Positions 28,571 to 39,215 of a stretch of DNA of 42,826 nucleotides are shown here, in pieces; the stretch's first letter is position 1, and every line of letters begins with the position of its first letter. The position numbers and the translations under genes were made by a program. The DNA comes from Clostridia bacterium (lineage in GTDB: Bacteria; Bacillota; Clostridia; TANB77; CAG-508): contig JAEESU010000010.1 in assembly GCA_016290095.1 (NCBI GenBank), positions 219,286 to 262,111 on the forward strand, written 5' to 3'. The notes beneath the pieces were generated by a model. It did no database searches, was not told the origin of the DNA, and worked only from the letters and a program-made list of their open reading frames with translations.

Positions 28571-28584
28571 TATGAAAATAATAT

Positions 28585-28611
28585 AAAAGTTGCCGCGGCG
28601 AGTGCCGCGGC
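28585..28611 (-). terminator. G+C-rich terminator of the 77-residue gene
   Basis: An 8-bp all-G/C stem GCCGCGGC / GCCGCGGC around a 4-base loop, then (minus strand) AACTTTT. It lies 21 bases after the LRR stop and may also end that transcript. Confidence 0.85.
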
Positions 28612-28621
28612 TTTCGAGATT

Positions 28622-28855
28622 TTACCAGGAGACCTGCTTAGAGACCCAGTTCATCGGGTCTTCCCCCCTGGCCCAGACCAGGATGGTGACGTCGCCAAAG
28701 TGGTAGGACCAGATGTTGTAGCTCGTGCTGGAGACGGTCGTGAACTTGTCGGGGTTGATCGAGTGGATGAACCTCGCCGTGTCGGGGTTCCGGCTCACAG
28801 CCAGCATGATGCCATTCTTGATGGCGGGAGAGGGGTTCTTCTGGATGTTGAACAT
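28622..28855 (-). CDS. Extremely G+C-rich gene for a 77-residue soluble protein
   Basis: A compact gene in its own unit: promoter at 28928-28956, leader hairpin, AGAGGAGG ribosome binding site seven bases before the ATG, and a G+C terminator. The protein begins MFNIQKNPSPAIKNGIM, has no membrane helix and contains five Trp (for example NIWSYHFGDVTILVWARG, and it ends in SKQVSW). It looks like a small alpha/beta domain. By direct count 71 of 77 codons end in G or C, whereas neighbouring genes overwhelmingly end in A or T, so codon choice is foreign or under special selection. A 66-codon ORF on the opposite strand is a by-product of the base composition. No family is recognised. Confidence 0.8.
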   Translation of the reverse strand: MFNIQKNPSPAIKNGIMLAVSRNPDTARFIHSINPDKFTTVSSTSYNIWSYHFGDVTILVWARGEDPMNWVSKQVSW

Positions 28856-28883
28856 GGTTTTTCCTCCTCTTTCTCGGGTGTTC

Positions 28884-29098: not shown

Positions 29099-30211
29099 AT
29101 GGAAACAAAAGAACTGGTAAAAAGTGAAGTAGAAGATTATGCTAAGTTTGATTTAATAAGGTATGCACAAGTTTGGGAAGATGCTGATATTTTACTAGAG
29201 TCATTAAATATTAATGAAAATGATAATATTCTTTCAATTGCATCTGCTGGAGAAAATGCTTTGAGTCTATTGGTTAAAAATCCAAATAAAGTTTATGCAA
29301 TTGACCTAAACTTAAATCAAATGGCTTGCACTGAACTAAAGAAAATATCTTATAAATTTTTAAATTATGAAGAATGTATGGAATTATTAGGTGTAATTGA
29401 TTCAAATAATCGAATAGACTTGTATAACAAAATAAAAAATGAGCTTAATGAAGAAACTCAAAAATATTTTGAAAAAAATATTGAAATAATTAAAGCTGGA
29501 ATAATTCATACAGGAAAGTTTGAAAAGTATTTTCAAATATTTGGTAAAAAAATTCTACCTCTAATTCATTCAAAAAGAACTAGAGAATTACTTCTAAGTA
29601 AAAAAACAAAAGAAGAAAGAGTAGAATTTTATAATAAACAATGGAATAATTTACGTTGGCGTTTACTGTTTAAAATTTTCTTTTCACGAACTGTTATGGG
29701 AAAGCTTGGTAGAGATAAAGCCTTTTTTAGATATGTAAATGTAAATGTTGCAGAACATATTTTGGAGAGAACTAAATATGCAATCACAGAATTAGACACT
29801 TCAGAAAATTCATATTTACATTATATTATTAATAATAAATATGATAAAGTTTTGCCATTAGCTTATAGAAAAGAAAATTTTGAAATAATAAAAAAGAATA
29901 TAGATAAATTAGTTTTATTAACAGAGTCTGTTGAAACTTTTATTGAAAGAGATGATGTAGATTATATTACAAAATATAATTTAAGTGATATTTTTGAATA
30001 TATGGATGATTCTCAAATGTGTAAAATTTATGAAAGTATTTTAAAAAAATCACCATCTGGTTCTCGAGTAGTATACTGGAATATGCTTGCAGATAAAAGA
30101 GCATCTAAATACTTTGAAAACCTAGATTATAAGGAAAAAGAGTCTGATGAGTTATTGAAAAAAGATAAAGCATTTTTTTATAGTAAATTAATTATTGAGG
30201 AGATTAAGTAA
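29099..30211 (+). CDS. BtaA-like SAM:diacylglycerol 3-amino-3-carboxypropyltransferase (DUF3419)
   Basis: A 370-residue DUF3419 protein. The characterised member BtaA moves the 3-amino-3-carboxypropyl group of S-adenosylmethionine onto diacylglycerol, making diacylglyceryl-homoserine, the first step of betaine-lipid synthesis. Family motifs are RYAQVWEDADILLESL at residues 21-36, NILSIASAGENALSLL at about 43-58 (SAM-binding loop) and VYAIDLNLNQMACTELK at about 64-80. Further signs are the 'GKFEKYFQIFGKKILPLIH' region (described by position, about 141-159) and the C-terminal SRVVYWNML. No BtaB-type N-methyltransferase accompanies it, so the product may not be a betaine lipid. The ribosome binding site is AAAGGA. 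The stop overlaps the next start (TAATG). Whether the acceptor is diacylglycerol is inferred. Confidence 0.88.
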   Translation: METKELVKSEVEDYAKFDLIRYAQVWEDADILLESLNINENDNILSIASAGENALSLLVKNPNKVYAIDLNLNQMACTELKKISYKFLNYEECMELLGVIDSNNRIDLYNKIKNELNEETQKYFEKNIEIIKAGIIHTGKFEKYFQIFGKKILPLIHSKRTRELLLSKKTKEERVEFYNKQWNNLRWRLLFKIFFSRTVMGKLGRDKAFFRYVNVNVAEHILERTKYAITELDTSENSYLHYIINNKYDKVLPLAYRKENFEIIKKNIDKLVLLTESVETFIERDDVDYITKYNLSDIFEYMDDSQMCKIYESILKKSPSGSRVVYWNMLADKRASKYFENLDYKEKESDELLKKDKAFFYSKLIIEEIK

Positions 30212-31563
30212 TGGTAATAGAGTGGGGAAGTATTTTATTAGTACTTATACTTATTTTCATAGCTTTGATAATAATAAAAATAATTGAAAAAAAATCCAAC
30301 ATAAATGCAGAGCTTAAAAGAAAATCGTTCCATGTATCAATGGGAATAGTAATGCTATCATTTCCATATATATTTAAATCAACTTACTCAGTTGGTGTTC
30401 TTGGAATAATTGCACTTATTATAATGGTTATATTAAAAAGAACTAAACTTAAAAACTCAATTGGAACAGTGCTTTATAGCGTAAATAGAGAATCTCTTGG
30501 AGAAGTATTTTTTATAATTGCTGTTTTTAGTATCTTCTTTTTATCAAAGGGAGACAAGGTATTATATAGTATACCTATATTAGTTTTAACATTTGCTGAT
30601 AGTACAGCAGCTCTTATAGGAAAAAACTATGGAAAAAATAATTTAGCCGAATTTAGCGAGGATTCTAAAAGCATTGAAGGAAGCTTTATGTTTTTTATTG
30701 TTGCGTTTATGGCAACACTAGTCCCTCTTCTTCTTTGGACAGAAGTGGGACGAGAAGAAACGTTGATTATTTCGACTATAGTTGGATTTAATGCGGCACT
30801 TATAGAAATGATTTCACATACTGGAAATGATAACTTATTAATACCTCTAACAACCTATGCATTTGTTGCGACACACATAAACCAAAATTTAGAAGTATTA
30901 AAATTTGATTTAATAATAATTGCAATAATATATGTAATTGTATGTATTGCAAATAGAGTAAAGGTTTGGAGTAAACTTGCATTAGTTGAAACATTAGTTG
31001 TAGGATATTTAAGCATTGTACTATATGGATGGTATGCTATAGTGCCTCCAATTATTTTATTTTTAACTGTTTTAAGGTTTCCTAGAAGAACTGAAGAAGA
31101 AAAGAAAAAATTATATGATGCTAGAATAATTGAAACAAACATCATTATAGGCATTTCTTTATGCGGCTTAGTAGCAATTACAGGTTTAAAAGAAGAGTTT
31201 TTTATGATTTATTCAACATGTTATGCTATGCATTTAATAATTAATACATATATAAGATTAAAATACTATTTTAATTTAAGTGAAATCAAAAGTGTTGCAT
31301 TTTCATTTATTAAAGGACTAATATTTATTTATTTGCCATCATTAATTCTTTATAAAATAGTATTTAGTGGAAATATTGATTCTTTATTTACTTTATTGAT
31401 GATTATATCAATGTTTGCAAGTTCAATTTTAATTTATTTGAAAAAGAAAGATATAATTAATGAAGAGGTTTCAAAAGACAATGGTTATATGCATATGTCG
31501 ATAGTATTATTATTCACATTATTATTGTGTATAATTAAGTTTTATCAAATAATTTTTGGTTAA
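30211..31563 (+). CDS. Integral membrane CTP-dependent lipid kinase-like protein (phytol/dolichol kinase family), extended
   Basis: A 450-residue polytopic membrane protein with about a dozen hydrophobic segments. The first roughly 220 residues match the SEC59/VTE5/DGK1 family (phytol, dolichol or diacylglycerol kinases using CTP), which is related to CDP-diacylglycerol synthases. Matches are ELKRKSFHVSMG at 34-45, FADSTAALIGKNYGK at 128-142, KSIEGSFMFF at 153-162 and NDNLLIPL at 206-213. The C-terminal half (about 225-450) adds another six to seven helices that I do not recognise; family members are normally only about 200-300 residues. Translation is coupled to the BtaA-like gene. Likely phosphorylates or activates a lipid alcohol for the pathway; substrate unknown. 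Confidence 0.8.
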   Translation: MVIEWGSILLVLILIFIALIIIKIIEKKSNINAELKRKSFHVSMGIVMLSFPYIFKSTYSVGVLGIIALIIMVILKRTKLKNSIGTVLYSVNRESLGEVFFIIAVFSIFFLSKGDKVLYSIPILVLTFADSTAALIGKNYGKNNLAEFSEDSKSIEGSFMFFIVAFMATLVPLLLWTEVGREETLIISTIVGFNAALIEMISHTGNDNLLIPLTTYAFVATHINQNLEVLKFDLIIIAIIYVIVCIANRVKVWSKLALVETLVVGYLSIVLYGWYAIVPPIILFLTVLRFPRRTEEEKKKLYDARIIETNIIIGISLCGLVAITGLKEEFFMIYSTCYAMHLIINTYIRLKYYFNLSEIKSVAFSFIKGLIFIYLPSLILYKIVFSGNIDSLFTLLMIISMFASSILIYLKKKDIINEEVSKDNGYMHMSIVLLFTLLLCIIKFYQIIFG

Positions 31564-31574
31564 GAGGTAAAATT

Positions 31575-32480
31575 ATGGATTTTAAAATCGAAAATATTGG
31601 CAATAATGTTAAGATTACTTTAAATAGTTCAACTGCGACATGCTTTTTCTTAAATACACCGATTTTAGATGGTAAAAACATTGGATGTATTGGTGAATTA
31701 GAAATTAATAATTACGATGATGGAATTAAGCTAATTAAAAAGTGTGAAGATATTTTAAGAGAAAAAGAAGTAAAATATATTGTTGCACCAATGAATGGAA
31801 ATACATGGAAAAAGTATAGAACACTTAAATATTCAAATGGTGACGAACCATTTATTTTAGAAAATGTTAACCCTATTGAAGATAATGAAGTTTTAAAAAA
31901 TACAGGATTTAATGAAATTAATACTTATACTTCTTGCAGAGGACTTATATCAGATGCTTATAAATCTGAATTAATTGATATAGCTGAAAATCAAATTAAG
32001 ACTGAAAATATTACTATAAGGAAATTCAATAAAGAGAACTATATTGAAGATTTAAATAAAATATTTAATGTTTCAAAAGAAAGTTTTACAAGAAATCCGT
32101 TTTATACTCCAATAGAACGAGGTGATTTTATTAGTCAATATGAACCATATATTTCAATGATTGATGAGGATTTAATTTTAATTGCTGAAAAAAATGGAAT
32201 AGAAGTAGGCTTTGTTTTTTGTATACCTGATTTTAATGAACTTAAGCGAGGCAAGCCTTTACAAACATTAATATTAAAAACAATTGCTGTAAAACCTGAA
32301 TTTGAAGATTTAGCAATAGGCAATGTTTTATTAAACAGAATAGCAAATATCGCAAAAGAAAAAAATTACTTAGAATGGATTTTTGCATTTATGTATTCAA
32401 ATAATACTTCACAAAAAATGGCAAGTAGAAATGGTGCAAAAGTAATTAGAGAATATGCATTATATGGAAAGGAATTATAA
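31575..32480 (+). CDS. GNAT family acyltransferase
   Basis: A 301-residue cytosolic protein. An N-terminal region of about 130 residues has some GNAT-like character (NGNTWKKYRTLKY), possibly a degenerate repeat. The recognisable GNAT domain is at about 140-300, with IRKFNKENYIEDL opening, LILIAEKNGIEVGFVFCIPDF (positions about 196-216), TLILKTIAVKPEFEDLAIGN where the acyl-CoA pyrophosphate loop is expected, and YSNNTSQKMASRNGAKVIREYALY as the C-terminal helix/strand. The loop is the atypical DLAIGN rather than RGxGxG. Such enzymes N- or O-acylate amines; in this operon the amino group of a homoserine-type head group is an attractive but unproven target. AGAGGT is the ribosome binding site; it ends one base before the next gene. 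Confidence 0.8.
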   Translation: MDFKIENIGNNVKITLNSSTATCFFLNTPILDGKNIGCIGELEINNYDDGIKLIKKCEDILREKEVKYIVAPMNGNTWKKYRTLKYSNGDEPFILENVNPIEDNEVLKNTGFNEINTYTSCRGLISDAYKSELIDIAENQIKTENITIRKFNKENYIEDLNKIFNVSKESFTRNPFYTPIERGDFISQYEPYISMIDEDLILIAEKNGIEVGFVFCIPDFNELKRGKPLQTLILKTIAVKPEFEDLAIGNVLLNRIANIAKEKNYLEWIFAFMYSNNTSQKMASRNGAKVIREYALYGKEL

Positions 32481-32481
32481 A

Positions 32482-33969
32482 ATGAATTTAACAAATAATT
32501 TATTACGTAATTTTCAGAGTGTTCCTGACAATATTTGTTTAATACAAGATAATATTAAAATTGATTATAAAACTTTATATAATAAAGTTGCAAATTTTGC
32601 AGTATATCTAAAAAAACATGGAATAAAAAAAGGAGATAATGTTCTTGTATTAATTCCAATGTCAATTAATTTATATGTTTCATTACTAGCAATATGGTCT
32701 ATTGGTGCATCAGCATGCTTTATGGATGCTGGATTTATAAAAAATGGAATGAAAAAAAATGAATTTAAAGAGGTTAACGGCATAATTGGAATAACTAAAT
32801 ATTTGATATATTCAAATGTAAATAGAAATTTAAGAAAACTTAGAATAAAGATTAATTCTAATATTATAAGTAAACTATCAAGTGATGTAGACTTAGATAT
32901 TGAAGAGGTTGATGAAAGCTCAAATGCAATTTTAACATATACAAGTGGAACAACAGGAACTCCTAAAGTGGCTGCAAGATCACATTCATTTTTACAAAAT
33001 CAAGGAATAATTTTAGAAAAATGCTTAAATTACGAAGAAACAGATATTGAACTTTCAAGTGTACCTATATTTACTTTATCAAATATTAATTTTGGTATTA
33101 CTACAGTAATTGCAAATGGCAATTTTAAAAATCTTGGTAATTCAAATGCTTCAAAACTTGTTAAACAAATTGAGATAAATAATATTAACAGAATAATGGC
33201 TGCTCCAGGACTTCTTAATTTAATTGTAGAGTATTGTATGATAAATAATAAGAAATTATACAATGTAAACAAAGTATTTACTGGAGGAGGAGCAGTATTT
33301 CTTGATTTTATAGAAAAAGTGAAGTTTGTATTCCCAAATGCTTTAATTACAACATTATATGGCTCTACCGAGGCAGAACCAATTGCAGAGCTTAATATAA
33401 ATGATATGACTTCTGACGATATTGAAAACACTAAAAATGGATATGGAATTTTGGCTGGAAATATTGTTGGAGTTGATGATTGCAAAACTATTAAATATGA
33501 TATTGATGAAATCGGAAATATTTCTGCTTATGAATTTAAAAAAATACAAACAGACGAAATAGGAGAAATTGTAGTTACTGGAAAAAATGTTCTTGAAGGA
33601 TATGTAAATGGTGTTGGGGATAAAGAAAATAAATTTTCAGTAGAAGGCAAAAAATATCATAGAACCGGTGATTTGGGGATAATAAAAGATGGCAAGTTAT
33701 GGCTTAGAGGGAGAATAAAACAACCATTTTTCCATATAGAAGCATCTTTACATTCAAATTTAAATATTGGAAAAACAGCCGTTTTTAAAAATGAAGGAAA
33801 AACAATATTAGTGTTAGAAAATTCTGATAATATAAAGAATGAGGATATATATAATTGTATAAATTTTGATAAAATTGATGAAATTATACATGTAAAAAAA
33901 ATACCGGTTGATAAAAGACATAGTACAAAAGTAGATTATAATGAACTTAAGAAAATATTAAAAATTTAA
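32482..33969 (+). CDS. Adenylate-forming enzyme, OleC-like (AMP-binding)
   Basis: A 495-residue ANL-superfamily enzyme. The ATP P-loop is TYTSGTTGTPK at 152-162, the adenine motif is YGSTEAEP, and the HRTGDLG motif and C-terminal domain are present, with RHSTKVDY providing the probable catalytic Lys. The features ASACFMDAGF (about 76-85) and TEAEPI recall OleC-type beta-lactone synthetases and related acyl ligases rather than standard acyl-CoA synthetases; this is a recalled resemblance only. The start is the ATG at 32482, one base after the GNAT stop, with GGAAAGGAA upstream; an in-frame ATG 27 bases earlier lies within the GNAT gene and is rejected. Likely activates an acid of the cluster product. 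Confidence 0.85.
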   Translation: MNLTNNLLRNFQSVPDNICLIQDNIKIDYKTLYNKVANFAVYLKKHGIKKGDNVLVLIPMSINLYVSLLAIWSIGASACFMDAGFIKNGMKKNEFKEVNGIIGITKYLIYSNVNRNLRKLRIKINSNIISKLSSDVDLDIEEVDESSNAILTYTSGTTGTPKVAARSHSFLQNQGIILEKCLNYEETDIELSSVPIFTLSNINFGITTVIANGNFKNLGNSNASKLVKQIEINNINRIMAAPGLLNLIVEYCMINNKKLYNVNKVFTGGGAVFLDFIEKVKFVFPNALITTLYGSTEAEPIAELNINDMTSDDIENTKNGYGILAGNIVGVDDCKTIKYDIDEIGNISAYEFKKIQTDEIGEIVVTGKNVLEGYVNGVGDKENKFSVEGKKYHRTGDLGIIKDGKLWLRGRIKQPFFHIEASLHSNLNIGKTAVFKNEGKTILVLENSDNIKNEDIYNCINFDKIDEIIHVKKIPVDKRHSTKVDYNELKKILKI

Positions 33970-33995
33970 GAAATTATATAAAATATGGAGTGAAT

Positions 33996-34859
33996 ATGAG
34001 TTTTTTTAAAAAATGGTATACATACCAAAAAGAAAGATTTCCAGTTTTAAAATATGGAACATATATTTTTTCAATTGTTTTTGCAGTGTTCTTTTATTGT
34101 AGTAATAAGACTAGTAGTTTTAACTATATATTATTAGTTCCTATGTTTATAGTTGCATTTTTACAATTTTTAATGGTAAGAATAATTGATGAGTTTAAAG
34201 ATTATGAAGAAGATAAAAAGTATAGACCTTATAGACCAGTACCAAGAGGTTTAGTATCTTTAAAAGAATTAGGAATTCTTTTTATAATATGTGCAATTAT
34301 TCAAATGATTATAACTTTTTTAATAAATAAAAAAGGAATAGTATATCTTATATTTGTATGGATAATTTTTGCAATAATGACAAAAGGATTTTTTATAAAA
34401 AGTGTTTTAGACAAACATATTTTGTTAGAGGTACTTCTTGATGAATTATTAATGCCAGTATTAGTTTTATATTTGACTAGTTTTATTGGTAATATTCAAA
34501 TAGAATTTATTTATGAAATTTTACTTATGAGCTATTTTGTTTCATGGATTGTTGAAATAGCAAGAAAAATTAGATGTAAAGAAGACGAAGAAAAAGGTGT
34601 TAAAACATATACAGCAGTTTTCGGAATAAAAAAAGCTGTTTTAATTTTATCTACCATTGAAATAATTTTAATTATAATTCAAACAAAAATTTTAACAAGT
34701 AAATATATTATCTTAACTGCTATATTATTAGTATTGGTTATGTGTTGTAATATAATATTTGTAAAAAAGCAAGATAAAAAAACATCAGATTTTGTTCAAC
34801 TTTCAGCAAATATATTAGTTTTAGCATGTTATTTTAGCATGTATTTATTAGTTTTATAA
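33996..34859 (+). CDS. UbiA-family prenyltransferase
   Basis: A 287-residue integral membrane protein with about eight to nine helices. The first Asp-rich motif is RIIDEFKDYEED at 62-73 (Asp65, Asp69, Asp73), followed by RPYRPVPRGLVSLKEL, an Arg/Pro-rich stretch typical of UbiA enzymes after that motif. A second acidic motif lies in ARKIRCKEDEEKGVKTYTAVFG, where UbiA proteins have DxxxD. Members move prenyl groups from prenyl diphosphates to aromatic, quinone, heme, sugar or glyceryl-phosphate acceptors. No quinone or heme genes are nearby, so the acceptor is probably a cluster intermediate. The start is ATG at 33996, five bases after GGAG. Confidence 0.87.
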   Translation: MSFFKKWYTYQKERFPVLKYGTYIFSIVFAVFFYCSNKTSSFNYILLVPMFIVAFLQFLMVRIIDEFKDYEEDKKYRPYRPVPRGLVSLKELGILFIICAIIQMIITFLINKKGIVYLIFVWIIFAIMTKGFFIKSVLDKHILLEVLLDELLMPVLVLYLTSFIGNIQIEFIYEILLMSYFVSWIVEIARKIRCKEDEEKGVKTYTAVFGIKKAVLILSTIEIILIIIQTKILTSKYIILTAILLVLVMCCNIIFVKKQDKKTSDFVQLSANILVLACYFSMYLLVL

Positions 34860-34877
34860 AATGGAGCATGGAAAGAT

Positions 34878-37403
34878 ATGAAATATGTTTTAGAAAGTGA
34901 TTGTAATAATTTTAATATTATGGGAGGAAAGGCAACTGCTCTTTCAAAAATTGGAAGAGTAATTAATAATGTGCCACCTTGGTTTGTAGTATCATATGAA
35001 GGTTTTGACAAAGATAGTAAACAAATAATTTCAGAAGCAGTTAATGAAATATTAAAAAGACTAAAAGACTATTCTGATGATTCATATTTTGCAGTAAGAT
35101 CATCTGCTGGAAATGAGGACTCTTCTGAAAACTCATTTGCAGGTCAATTTGATACATTTTTATATGTAAATAAAAATGATGTTGTTAATAAAGTTAAAGA
35201 AGTATATATGTCTGCTTTTTCAGATAGAATTGAAACATATAGAAAGGAAAATAATATTAAGGATATTTTTATTCCTTCTGTAATAGTTCAAAAAATGGTG
35301 AATTCAAGATGTGCTGGTGTAGCTTTTGGAGCAAACCCAGTAAATTCTAATATTAAAGAAATTGTTATATCAGCTGTTTATGGATTAGGTAGTGGACTTG
35401 TTGATGGAATTGCAACTGCAGATACGTATATAATATCAAATAATAATATTGACAAACGAATTGCAAAAAAAGACTTTTTTCACATAATGGAAAAGGGAGA
35501 AGTAGTGCAGAAAAATGTAGATAGTGAATTAATAGATAAGCAAATTCTAAGCGATGATGAAATAAATGAAGTTAAAGAACTCGTAAAAAAAGCTAGTGAT
35601 TTTTTTGGAAGATTTCAAGATATTGAATGGGCTTATGAAGATAATAAACTATATTTACTACAATCACGACCAATTACAACTTTAGGCAAAAATAAGGATA
35701 GTAAAATAAATGTATTTGATAATAGCAATATTGTTGAAAGCTATGGAGGAATAACAACTCCATTAACTTTTTCGTTTATAAGAATGGTTTATGAAAATGT
35801 ATATATTGAGTTGTGTAAAATTTTTAAAGTTAAGCAAGAGAAAATAGAATTAAACTCTCAAATGTTTAAAAGTATGCTAGCATTAATTGATGGAAGAGTA
35901 TATTATAATTTATATGGCTGGTATGGAATGCTTTCTTTGTTTCCTGGACTTGGAAATAATAAGAAATTTATGGAACAAATGATGGGTGTTAAAGAATCAT
36001 TGCCAGAAGACTTGTTTCCTGTACCAGAAGCAACATTTAAAGATAAAATTGGATTATTAAATACTGGATTAGGCTTAGTAAATGGTTTCTTTAAAATTCG
36101 TAGAATGACTAATAATTTTTATGGAAGATTAAATGATGCTTTAGAAGATAAAGATATAAAAAACATGGATTTATACGAATTACATGATTATTATTATGAA
36201 CTTGAGAGCAAACTTCTTCATAAGTGGGATGCTCCACTTGTAAATGATTTTCTTGCAATGATTTTTTATGGAAAGTTAAAACAAGAATGTAGAGATATTT
36301 TTAAAGAAGAAGGAGATTTAATTCATAATGATTTGCTTTGTAATGAAGGCGGAATCATAAGTAGTGAACCTGCAAAAAAAATTAAAGAAATGGCAAAAAT
36401 AGTAAAAGACAATGATGAATTACTGGAACTACTTGAAAGTGGTGATGTTTACAAAACTCAAAAAGAATTACCTAAATATGAAGAATTTTATAATTTACTA
36501 AATCAATATTTAGATAAGTTTTCTGACAGATGTTTACAAGAACTTAAGCTTGAAACATTAACATTAAAAGATAATCCTATAAGTTTATATAGTTCTATAG
36601 CTACATTTGCAAGACGTATAAAAAATACTAATATAGTAGAAATTGATGAAAGAAAAAATAGGATAGAAGCAGAAAGAAAAGTAAATAAAAAACTTATACT
36701 TAATCCAATAAAAAAAGCAAAATTTAAATTTATTTTAAATCAAGCTAGATTTACTGTAAAAAACAGAGAGAATCTTAGATTCGAAAGGACTCGTTTATTT
36801 GGACGCGTAAGAGAATTATTTTTACAAATAGGATTTATATTAGCTTCAATGAATGTAATAGAAGAAAAAAGAGATATTTTTTACTTAGAAGTTGACGAAA
36901 TATTATTTTATATAGATGGAAAATCAACTACAAATAACTTAAAAGAACTTATTAAAATTAGAAAAGAACAATATTTTAAATATAAGGAAACAAATCCAGA
37001 TAATAGATTTTATTCATATGGTGCTGTAAATATTGGAAATGATTTTAAGAGAGAAATAATTAGAGACAACAAATCCGAAAATCTTAAAGTAGATTTAAAA
37101 GGAATTGGAGCTTCACCAGGAAAAGTTACCGGAAAGGTAAGAATTATTAAGAATCCAGCAAATGCAAAACTTGAACAAGGTGAAATATTAGTTGCAGAAT
37201 ATACGGATCCAGGTTGGATAATGCTATTTCCTGCTGCAAGTGGTATATTAGTTGAAAGAGGAAGCTTGTTATCTCATTCAGCAATTGTATCAAGAGAATT
37301 AGGAATTCCTGCGGTTGTTGGAATTACAGGTTTAATTAATAGTCTTAAAGATGGAGATATTGTTGAACTAGATGGAACAACAGGAAATGTTAGTATAAAA
37401 TAG
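34878..37403 (+). CDS. PEP-synthase/rifampin-phosphotransferase-like dikinase with phosphohistidine domain
   Basis: An 841-residue protein. The N-terminal ATP-grasp domain (about 1-270) has GGKATALSKIG with Lys18, FAVRSSAGNEDSSENSFAGQ with Arg74, DIEW with Glu250 and LQSRPITTL at 261-269. A central region of about 430 residues is not recognisable. The C-terminal swivelling domain (about 760-841) carries the catalytic His800 in SLLSHSAIVSRELGIPAVVG (family pattern GGxxSHxAIVxRE). It lacks the C-terminal PEP/pyruvate TIM barrel of PpsA and PPDK, so in order and size it matches rifampin phosphotransferase (Rph), which passes the beta-phosphate of ATP through His to a small molecule bound by the middle domain. 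Here the acceptor is more likely a lipid-pathway alcohol than an antibiotic; that is inference from context. Confidence 0.85.
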   Translation: MKYVLESDCNNFNIMGGKATALSKIGRVINNVPPWFVVSYEGFDKDSKQIISEAVNEILKRLKDYSDDSYFAVRSSAGNEDSSENSFAGQFDTFLYVNKNDVVNKVKEVYMSAFSDRIETYRKENNIKDIFIPSVIVQKMVNSRCAGVAFGANPVNSNIKEIVISAVYGLGSGLVDGIATADTYIISNNNIDKRIAKKDFFHIMEKGEVVQKNVDSELIDKQILSDDEINEVKELVKKASDFFGRFQDIEWAYEDNKLYLLQSRPITTLGKNKDSKINVFDNSNIVESYGGITTPLTFSFIRMVYENVYIELCKIFKVKQEKIELNSQMFKSMLALIDGRVYYNLYGWYGMLSLFPGLGNNKKFMEQMMGVKESLPEDLFPVPEATFKDKIGLLNTGLGLVNGFFKIRRMTNNFYGRLNDALEDKDIKNMDLYELHDYYYELESKLLHKWDAPLVNDFLAMIFYGKLKQECRDIFKEEGDLIHNDLLCNEGGIISSEPAKKIKEMAKIVKDNDELLELLESGDVYKTQKELPKYEEFYNLLNQYLDKFSDRCLQELKLETLTLKDNPISLYSSIATFARRIKNTNIVEIDERKNRIEAERKVNKKLILNPIKKAKFKFILNQARFTVKNRENLRFERTRLFGRVRELFLQIGFILASMNVIEEKRDIFYLEVDEILFYIDGKSTTNNLKELIKIRKEQYFKYKETNPDNRFYSYGAVNIGNDFKREIIRDNKSENLKVDLKGIGASPGKVTGKVRIIKNPANAKLEQGEILVAEYTDPGWIMLFPAASGILVERGSLLSHSAIVSRELGIPAVVGITGLINSLKDGDIVELDGTTGNVSIK

Positions 37404-37418
37404 GATTTGGAGATTATT

Positions 37419-39155
37419 ATGAATGAAATTAATTCATTAAAAGATTTATTAGAATATAGTGCTAAAAGATTTGGAAATAAAGAACTATATAGAATTAATA
37501 ATAAAACTATTTCGTATGCTGATTTTTATAATTACGTTAAAATTTTGAGTAATGCACTTTTTAAAAAAGGTATACATAGGCAAAAAATAGGAATAATTTC
37601 AGAAAACAGGTTTGAATGGGAAATAGCTTTTTTTGCAATATCCTGTAGTAATAATATTATTGTTCCTATAGATAAGAGCTATACTAAACTTGAAATAAAG
37701 AATGTAATTAATAAAGCAGATATTAATACTGTTTTTACATCATCTAATTATATAGACATTTTAAATGAGATAAAAGATAGAGAAAATACAGGCTTAAAAA
37801 ATGTTTTTTGCTTTGATGGCGCTAAAGATAATTCGCTAGTGAGTTTACTTGGGGAAAAAACTGATACTGAAGATTATTATAGTAATATAAATGTATACGA
37901 AGATGATATGTGCTTAATTTCTTTTACATCAGGTACTACAGATAATCCTAAAGCAGTTATGCTATCTCATAAAAATATCTGCTCTAATTTAATTAATGTT
38001 TCAGAAAGAATACCTTTAAGTGAAAAGGATATTTGCCTTTCAATATTACCTTTAAACCATGTACTAGAAGGATTGTTTTGTTTTTTATTATGTTTTTATA
38101 AAGGGACAACAAGAATTTTTTGTAATAATATTGATAGTATTTGTGATTATATTTCTAAATATAAGATTACTTTCATGGGTGGAGTACCTGCAATTTATAA
38201 TTATTTATATAATAAAAAAAATGAAATTAAAATTGAAGCGAATCATATAAATATGTTTATGTGTGGAGGAGCACCTTTAAATAGTAATATTGTAACTGAC
38301 TTTAGAAAAATTGGTATAACCATTATTCAAGGGTATGGATTAACCGAATGTGCTCCTGTTGTTTCAATTGAAAATAAAGATAATAAAAAAATAGGTTCTG
38401 TAGGAAAGCCTATTCCAAACGTTTTAGTTAATATTATAAATCAAAATGAAGATGGAATAGGTGAGATTATTGTTAAAGGAAATAATGTATTTCTTGGATA
38501 TTTAAATGATGAAGAAAAAAGCAAAGAAGTGATAAAAGATAATTGGTTATATACTGGAGATTTAGGGAAAATTGATGAAGATGGATACATTTTTATATAT
38601 GGTAGAAATAAAAATATGATAGTACTTCCAAATGGTAAAAAAGTTTTTCCTGAAGAAATTGAAGAATTAATAAATAATATAGATGGGGTTAATGAATCAC
38701 TTGTATATGAAAATGAGAATACAAAGAAGATTAATGCAATAATTGTTACTAATGATGATGCAACATACATAAAAGAAAAGATTGATAATATAAATCAAGA
38801 TTTGCCAATTTATAAAAAGATTTGTGATATAAAAATTACAAATGAATATTTAAATAGAACATCATCAGGAAAACTTGTTCGAAATTTTGAAAAAATTGAT
38901 GAAGTTGCATATACTATAAATAATACTAGTGATGCGAATCATTTGTTTGAAAAAATAAAAGAAATTATTTGTTCTCAATTTGGAAATATAGAAATTACTG
39001 AAAATACAAATTTACGAAATGATTTAGGAGCAGATTCACTAGACTGTTTAGGATTGTTTTTAAATATTGAGAAATCATTTAATAAAAAAATTACACATGA
39101 ACAAAGAATAAAAATATCAACAGTTGGCGATATTTTAAAGATAATAATAGAATAA
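37419..39155 (+). CDS. Acyl ligase fused to an acyl carrier protein domain
   Basis: A 578-residue two-part protein. The adenylate-forming domain covers about 1-490: SFTSGTTDNPKAVMLSH from 168 onward, GYGLTECAPV, YTGDLGKIDEDG and a C-terminal Lys in RTSSGKLVRN. The acyl carrier domain occupies about 500-578, with NLRNDLGADSLDCLGLFLNI, where Ser540 in the DSL motif should carry 4'-phosphopantetheine. Such fusions load a fatty or other acid onto their own carrier. The start is ATG at 37419, with TTTGGAG upstream; an in-frame TTG at 37407 is rejected. Last gene of the cluster, followed by a terminator. The GNAT protein of the same operon could take the acyl group from this carrier. Confidence 0.9.
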   Translation: MNEINSLKDLLEYSAKRFGNKELYRINNKTISYADFYNYVKILSNALFKKGIHRQKIGIISENRFEWEIAFFAISCSNNIIVPIDKSYTKLEIKNVINKADINTVFTSSNYIDILNEIKDRENTGLKNVFCFDGAKDNSLVSLLGEKTDTEDYYSNINVYEDDMCLISFTSGTTDNPKAVMLSHKNICSNLINVSERIPLSEKDICLSILPLNHVLEGLFCFLLCFYKGTTRIFCNNIDSICDYISKYKITFMGGVPAIYNYLYNKKNEIKIEANHINMFMCGGAPLNSNIVTDFRKIGITIIQGYGLTECAPVVSIENKDNKKIGSVGKPIPNVLVNIINQNEDGIGEIIVKGNNVFLGYLNDEEKSKEVIKDNWLYTGDLGKIDEDGYIFIYGRNKNMIVLPNGKKVFPEEIEELINNIDGVNESLVYENENTKKINAIIVTNDDATYIKEKIDNINQDLPIYKKICDIKITNEYLNRTSSGKLVRNFEKIDEVAYTINNTSDANHLFEKIKEIICSQFGNIEITENTNLRNDLGADSLDCLGLFLNIEKSFNKKITHEQRIKISTVGDILKIIIE

Positions 39156-39181
39156 GATTATTTAATAATCTAACTATAAAA

Positions 39182-39215
39182 AACAAGATAAGTGCATATC
39201 TTCTCTTGTTTTTTT
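39182..39215 (+). terminator. Terminator of the lipid-like cluster
   Basis: Stem AAGATA / TATCTT with loop AGTGCA, or the outer stem AACAAGA / TCTTGTT, ending in a seven-T run. It overlaps the -35 region of the uvrB promoter. Confidence 0.75.

Follow-up and report, generated by a model that had tools for sequence, protein, structure and literature searches.

The question raised by this locus is what a block of tightly packed genes, lying in the genome of a Clostridia bacterium, makes. The DNA analysed, referred to here as the window, is a stretch of 42,826 nucleotides from contig JAEESU010000010.1 of assembly GCA_016290095.1, a genome of 1.5 Mb in 30 contigs with an estimated completeness of about 90%. 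Seven open reading frames (ORFs) in the same direction, designated A to G, span positions 29099 to 39155 of the plus strand, and uvrB follows from 39296. A preliminary description of the window had placed the seven ORFs at exactly these positions and had taken them for an operon of an undescribed lipid or prenyl-lipid pathway. The present analysis showed that genes A to F form a conserved unit. Their product may be a seemingly undescribed ether-type amino lipid, made according to the general plan set out below; this reading is tentative, nearly as likely to be right as wrong.

A collection of named genomes, containing one genome per species, was scanned with an alignment of A, and at least 583 candidate stretches and at least 504 relatives of A were obtained. 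The best 80 loci, 28 from close Clostridia and 52 others, were kept and searched for A to F by tblastn (fetched loci are labelled L, genomes G). The complete set was present in 61 of the 80 loci, and 14 of the 19 incomplete ones can be explained by contig or locus ends. Co-occurrence in other genomes had been named beforehand as the test of the proposal, and on this point the proposal held. As the block recurs far beyond the genome of the window, it is well supported as a unit that owes its existence to more than chance. The search had been suggested for Firmicutes, a scope that proved too narrow, since carriers include not only gut Clostridia and, once, a plasmid, but Gammaproteobacteria, Planctomycetes, Verrucomicrobia and others as well. 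At >150 bits, gene G occurred in nine of the 28 close Clostridial loci and in no locus of the other 52 (9/80); an incomplete copy where the contig of L041 ends and a lower-scoring G-like ligase in L102 are left out of this count. It is an extra of some close Clostridia outside the conserved unit, so that only six of the seven genes first proposed as a unit were retained.

Comparison of the ORFs of all 80 loci gave seven broadly recurrent families of long sense ORFs, namely A to F, with G joined to D, and a family resembling 3-hydroxy-3-methylglutaryl-CoA (HMG-CoA) reductase. Other families occurring in at least 10 loci were, judging by their listed examples, short antisense ORFs, smaller overlapping ORFs or ORFs confined to close Clostridia, and were left unannotated. 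The gene order was A-B-C-D-E-F in 26 of the 28 close Clostridial loci. Among the 52 others the commonest orders were FcrA-E-F-A-B-C-D (16 loci) and C-D-FcrA-E-F-A-B (9 loci), FcrA standing for the reductase-like gene, and the commonest adjacent pairs were E-F (46), A-B (46), F-A (44) and C-D (38). The ORFs for B and/or D were split in two in the Clostridial metagenome-assembled genomes of L026, L027, L041, L045 and L083, for which assembly errors, gene fission and decay are alternative explanations.

A was found in 6 of 145 genomes of the window's family and in 15 of 287 genomes of its order, one of the latter with only a short match of 33% identity. Strong matches to B (E of 1e-98 or lower) were present in 14 of the 287 order genomes, the same 14 that have a strong A. 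In the cultured alphaproteobacterium Roseinatronobacter sp. S2 the genes lie in the order E-F-A-B-C-D on a 137-kb plasmid, with an FcrA-type gene in two parts flanking the record start, just before E; B and C are annotated there as 'hypothetical protein'. Nine plasmid records had a match to A, with 40% identity for Roseinatronobacter and 21-23% for the other eight. No match was obtained with phages, and no relative was found among viral contigs. A tree of A with 71 rows, 70 of them labelled with 13 phylum-level names, had 22 label changes, with 12 being the fewest possible and 36.8 occurring in shuffles. The label changes suggest transfer but are no proof of it; the pathway was probably spread in this way.

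By tblastn, 32 of the 52 loci that are not close Clostridial contain the reductase-like gene, 28 of them immediately before E; the operon of the window lacks it. In searches of whole genomes it was detected in none of nine Clostridial and in five of eight other genomes, in one copy each and always inside the cluster. When 31 copies were aligned with human and archaeal HMG-CoA reductase (HMGR), the catalytic residues E559, K691, D767 and H866, expected of a class I HMGR-like enzyme, were kept in all 31; S684 was replaced by E, K735 was lost and L862 was replaced by F, also in 31/31. According to the consulted part of a review, S684 and K735 are residues of the HMG pocket (PMC7503714). FcrA of Ca. 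Promineifilum breve, an HMGR homologue, is described in the consulted part of a 2025 paper as reducing fatty acyl-CoA to the alcohol and as not reducing HMG-CoA (PMC11948995). The changes given there for FcrA are Glu for S684, a change of a lysine printed as Lys795, here taken to be 735, and a bulky residue for L862, which is Trp in N. pharaonis. Its uses are stated as wax esters in halophilic archaea and bacteria, ether lipids being suggested as another, and the word UbiA is absent from the text consulted. From the aligned residues the cluster reductases look like FcrA. An FcrA-type gene indicates an alkyl chain derived from a fatty alcohol, which may take the place of a prenyl chain or occur alongside it; the initial proposal of a lipid alcohol that is phosphorylated or prenylated is amended accordingly. 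Two earlier ideas for the reductase substrate, an allylic acyl-CoA and an aminocarboxypropyl thioester, are considered less likely than the reading as FcrA drawn from this paper.

Among 274 genomes of the class of Alkalilimnicola, five had a strong A (E of 7e-114 or lower), six had a strong FcrA-type gene (E of 7e-125 or lower) and four had both; weaker matches were found in 21 more genomes for A and in 44 more for the FcrA-type gene. The contig of G550 ends inside E, just past the reductase gene. Inspection by eye of the place just before E in L050, L052, L053, L054 and L074, five loci without the reductase-like gene, did not reveal a recognisable substitute for FcrA. Other HMGR-like genes were also observed. 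In G509 (L152:5580-8187) a WS/DGAT wax ester synthase gene is followed after about 20 bases by an HMGR-like gene that has S684, I735 and W862, which would fit the account in the consulted part of PMC11948995 except for S684. The HMGR-like genes of L149 and L130 (G359), L153 (G345) and L133 (G581) carry E at 684 together with Q or N at 735, and in some of them the pocket is altered further, K692 being replaced by R or N and H752 by N; those of L149 and L153 adjoin DUF374 or PlsC-like acyltransferase ORFs. They are perhaps further acyl reductases.

The other families also suit a lipid pathway as initially proposed, with Pfam support for A, C, D, E, F and G. Gene C (31575 to 32480, plus strand, as for all genes) encodes a tandem-GNAT acyltransferase. 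The Pfam GNAT domain was present in all 29 members, two of which also had a weak N-myristoyltransferase match, and the best folds for the model of C, which had a pLDDT (predicted local distance difference test score) of 95.6, were the tandem GNAT 7q3a and the glucosamine N-acetyltransferase 5kga. Gene D (32455 to 33969) encodes an AMP-forming acyl ligase with a Pfam AMP-binding domain. It had been called OleC-like, a name that was not upheld, as the best NCBIfam model was PRK09274 (fatty acid CoA ligase; 241 bits, cut-off 478) and the OleC models gave 124 and 123 bits, all below cut-off. The accessory gene G (37407 to 39155, TTG start) encodes an AMP-forming acyl ligase fused to an acyl carrier protein (ACP) domain (Pfam AMP-binding and PP-binding). 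F and G form one ORF in L025 (1421 amino acids) and L046 (1418 amino acids), and likewise in L041 up to the contig end; this fusion links the ligase-ACP with the phosphotransferase F.

In the proposed pathway a fatty acid would first be activated by D, together with G where present. The acyl-CoA would then be reduced to a fatty alcohol by an FcrA-type enzyme in many of the versions found beyond the close Clostridia; versions without such a gene would obtain the lipid alcohol from elsewhere. B would phosphorylate the alcohol, and F, converting a hydroxyl to a phosphate with ATP, would carry out the second activation or phosphorylate the backbone. E would couple the activated chain with a polar backbone. 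The protein encoded by A would move the 3-amino-3-carboxypropyl group of S-adenosylmethionine onto a hydroxyl of that lipid, as BtaA does onto diacylglycerol (PMC3972451, in the part consulted), and C would N-acylate the amine introduced in this way, using an acyl group that D or G has activated. What the computation shows is the conservation and co-occurrence of the genes, their fold families and the FcrA-like residues; every substrate, the order of the steps and the product we infer. The fully specified version, a new bacterial ether-lipid route in which FcrA-made alcohols are activated by phosphate, attached by a UbiA-type enzyme and given an N-acylated homoserine head, all travelling as one unit, is rather doubtful.

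The kinase step depends on gene B (30211 to 31563), which overlaps A by one base and encodes a polytopic membrane protein. Pfam and NCBIfam searches with the window's B at E 0.001 gave no match, and a sequence search for solved relatives found none. The model was all-helical (pLDDT 90), with the CDP-diacylglycerol (CDP-DAG) synthetase 4q2e as top Foldseek match (probability 0.92; E 0.17, not significant; TM-scores 0.18 and 0.27). Alignment of B with four cyanobacterial DUF92 proteins by hhalign gave 82% for the N-terminal half, over 38 columns (residues 128-165) at the catalytic motif. The N-terminal half of B thus weakly resembles the superfamily of CTP-dependent lipid kinases and CDP-DAG synthetases; the C-terminal half was assigned to no family. 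Of the initial label phytol/dolichol-kinase-like the weak matches remained, every one of them below cut-off. B was matched weakly (E 3e-7 to 9e-12) in five more genomes of the order, G310, G277, G293, G281 and G312, which are without the cluster. In every case the best match falls on the N-terminal half of B, and in G310 and G277 it lies in open frames of about 226-229 amino acids; possibly these are stand-alone kinases of the same superfamily. A fusion of two kinases resembling VTE5 and VTE6, an idea prompted by weak Pfam DUF92 matches on the C-terminal half of two B members, was unsupported, as hhalign to DUF92 gave just 7.5% for this half.

Gene E (33990 to 34859, GTG start) encodes a member of the UbiA superfamily (Pfam UbiA, 68.1 bits; cut-off 34.2). 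The best match of its profile in the PDB was digeranylgeranylglyceryl phosphate (DGGGP) synthase 6m31 (E 7e-8), followed by chlorophyll synthase. Two acidic diphosphate/Mg motifs are usual in this superfamily, and both are present in 6m31. The first, DExxDxxxD, is retained in E, with D67, D71 and D75 in all 58 aligned rows and E68 in 57. E is a non-canonical member that may act in a UbiA-like manner.

Several points weigh against the ether-type reading, which is a proposal based on genes. The scheme is weakest in what E takes as its donor, in what F does and in where the alcohol comes from when there is no reductase. The second motif of E is basic, with R192-K193 replacing the acidic residues in 58/58 rows, and a saturated alkyl diphosphate would be a poor donor for ordinary UbiA chemistry. 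An FcrA-type gene was missing from all 28 close Clostridial loci and from 20 of the 52 others, some of them cut by contig ends, so that a fatty alcohol is a candidate, not an established choice, for the chain shared by all versions. The likeness to FcrA was read from aligned residues, and G411 has an FcrA-type gene without A to F in the 12 kb inspected. Among 36 members of B, CTP_transf_1 was matched by two, on the N-terminal half (best E 0.0006, 20.1 bits), and DUF92 by seven (best E 0.008, 16 bits), all below cut-off. The unit itself has gaps that contig or locus ends do not explain, in B (L095), C (L085 and L102) and D (L091), and in L049 B is missing from its usual place, again without such an explanation; in 16.9 kb of G343 F and A alone were found.

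The features of B and E bear equally on an isoprenoid version of the pathway, in which E would use a prenyl diphosphate, B and F would activate a prenol or recover it by salvage, and a homoserine lipid with a prenyl ether or prenyl ester would result. The FcrA-type enzyme would in that case provide only a second chain, derived from an acyl group. This version would account for the acidic first motif of E, for solved relatives of E that are prenyl-transferring enzymes and for the weak likeness of B to lipid kinases. It is at odds with the invariant R192-K193 in place of the second acidic motif and with the extra reductase gene, which points to fatty alcohols, and a prenyl synthase is not among the seven broadly recurrent families. 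We regard this version as unlikely.

A different product was considered in connection with F. This gene (34878 to 37403) encodes a phosphotransferase resembling rifampin phosphotransferase (Rph) and phosphoenolpyruvate (PEP) synthase, with an ATP-grasp and a phospho-His domain. Pfam found PPDK_N and PEP-utilizers alone in F and no pyruvate-binding domain, which in PEP synthase is the C-terminal PEP-utilisers_C. The catalytic His800 was present in 58 of 59 rows, the remaining row having a gap, and the closest solved chain was 5fbs, deposited as phosphoenolpyruvate synthase. The best NCBIfam model was PRK06241.2-2 (718 bits, cut-off 883), and F remained below the cut-off of all listed NCBIfam models. 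With its ATP-grasp and its swivelling domain carrying the catalytic His, F has the make-up of an Rph-like dikinase. It also matches PigC (336 bits) and RedH (314 bits) along most of its length, as would be expected if it were an ATP-dependent ligase of this type and the product, instead of being a membrane lipid, were a specialised metabolite such as a signal or an antibiotic-like N-acyl amino compound. These scores are nevertheless far from the cut-offs of 1300 and 1350 bits and far lower than that of PRK06241.2-2. The patchy spread within the family and the carriage on a plasmid would suit an accessory trait. An ATP-binding cassette (ABC) transporter permease and ATPase, read by eye, lie immediately before A in L009 (L009:15302-18736); the ORF families with copies at this place, 23 and 41, recur in 11 and 5 related Clostridial loci, and such ORFs were also seen upstream of A in L032, L033 and L036. 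A membrane lipid is nevertheless favoured by the presence of two membrane enzymes and of FcrA, and the seven broadly recurrent families include no transporter, regulator, polyketide synthase or nonribosomal peptide synthetase. A specialised metabolite is considered improbable.

Gene A (29099 to 30211) encodes a protein of 370 amino acids that is BtaA-like and matches Pfam PF11899 (DUF3419) with 225 bits, the cut-off being 28.2. Conserved residues in 66 aligned rows include N294, S296-M302 and W26-E27-D28, and a sequence search for solved relatives found none. A is presumed to be an S-adenosylmethionine 3-amino-3-carboxypropyltransferase. The DUF3419 domain alone would also fit an ordinary BtaA/BtaB operon for a betaine-type (homoserine) lipid with unrelated neighbours. 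The neighbours are conserved, however, and B is inherited together with A. The preliminary description had remarked on the missing BtaB partner, and no BtaB-like methyltransferase was found among the seven broadly recurrent families of the 80 loci, the smaller families being unannotated and no genome-wide search for BtaB having been made. In addition, A shares about 23% identity with the DUF3419 ORF on L120, one of the eight more distant plasmid records, in which a methyltransferase-like ORF, judged by eye, follows behind. An ordinary betaine lipid operon is thus very improbable. A different DUF3419 gene was observed on the Rhizobium plasmid pMK-2 (L119), behind genes annotated as ketoacyl-ACP synthase III, NAD(P)-dependent oxidoreductase, MBL fold hydrolase and CoF synthetase; this gene group is possibly another DUF3419 pathway.

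That the reductase-like gene makes mevalonate for isoprenoids and the cluster belongs to the mevalonate route is scarcely credible and was rejected, since the TIGR00533 (HMG-CoA reductase) scores of three copies, although as high as 313-340 bits, are all below the cut-off of 441.8, the HMG-pocket residues are replaced in 31/31 copies, and HMG-CoA synthase was found in none of 12 genomes, five with the FcrA-type gene among them (other mevalonate genes were not searched), while DXR of the methylerythritol phosphate (MEP) route was found in nine of the 12, in two pieces in G042. The Clostridial carriers G000, G024 and G114 gave no match to HMGR, HMG-CoA synthase or DXR, which may be explained by incompleteness.

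The signals around the operon were less clear than its genes. The single promoter proposed at first found no support, as promoter-like sites were no commoner than chance (79 on both strands, compared with 82.9 in shuffles). The proposed single terminator is plausible in that a hairpin followed by a T-run lies after G at 39178 to 39214 of the plus strand (-11 kcal/mol, z -3.95), and is the likely intrinsic terminator of the operon, but it is absent from the list of the consensus scan. The overlap of 26 bases between C and D assumes the first ATG of D; with the ATG at 32482, a possible start, a gap of 1 base results. Just before the operon the window contains a GC-rich island (28580-28880; 0.52-0.62 per 60-base step, compared with 0.27 for the window) with a minus-strand ORF of 77 amino acids (28622-28855), which is preceded by an AGGAGG-like site and followed by a GC-rich terminator-like hairpin. 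Pfam, plasmid and phage searches gave no match for this island.

The preliminary description had known of no counterpart, and no description of the gene set was found among the titles and abstract beginnings of the papers listed from the open-access literature of PubMed Central (PMC), subscription papers and preprints being outside its scope. DUF3419 appears there by name in four papers, which deal with algae, plants and a fungus. Each of the enzyme families is known; their combination and product seem to be new. If the ether-type reading is true, many bacterial species carry an unrecognised lipid, and the pathway joins families that are not known to cooperate. It would give a role to a subgroup of DUF3419, to an uncharacterised subgroup of Rph/PEP-synthase-like enzymes and to B and C, and it would bear on the origin of ether-linked lipids outside Archaea. 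Some FcrA enzymes would also have a role beyond wax esters, a point left open in the consulted part of PMC11948995.

Compared with known systems, the cluster shares the DUF3419 domain with BtaA/BtaB, the system of the diacylglyceryl homoserine lipids DGHS and DGTS, and differs in its low identity, its five conserved partners and the lack of a BtaB-like gene among the broadly recurrent families. Like rifampin phosphotransferase and PEP synthase, F has an ATP-grasp and a phospho-His domain with the catalytic His, but it stays below the NCBIfam cut-offs, is conserved within the cluster and is without a detected pyruvate-binding domain. A kinase-like membrane protein beside a UbiA transferase recalls the route from phytol via phytyl-diphosphate to a UbiA enzyme (VTE5/VTE6/VTE2); the cluster has no second kinase, and the DUF92 likeness of the C-terminal half of B was unconfirmed. 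With archaeal ether lipids the connection is DGGGP synthase, the closest solved relative of E and similar in the first motif, whereas the second motif of E is basic and the broad families include neither geranylgeranylglyceryl phosphate (GGGP) synthase nor a prenyl synthase. The reductases resemble FcrA, as described in the consulted part of PMC11948995, in the kept catalytic residues, the change of S684 to E, the loss of K735 and a bulky aromatic residue at 862; they differ in having Phe862 where N. pharaonis has Trp and in lying beside UbiA, DUF3419, GNAT and kinase-like genes. The ElbD-type alkyl ether lipids of myxobacteria, mentioned in the same part of that paper, likewise draw on ligase and ACP domains and have a fatty acyl reductase that supplies ether lipid synthesis, and G is a ligase-ACP. 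ElbD, however, belongs to another reductase family, and the broad families of the cluster, without a PlsC-like enzyme or an alkylglycerone phosphate synthase, comprise UbiA, DUF3419, B and F instead.

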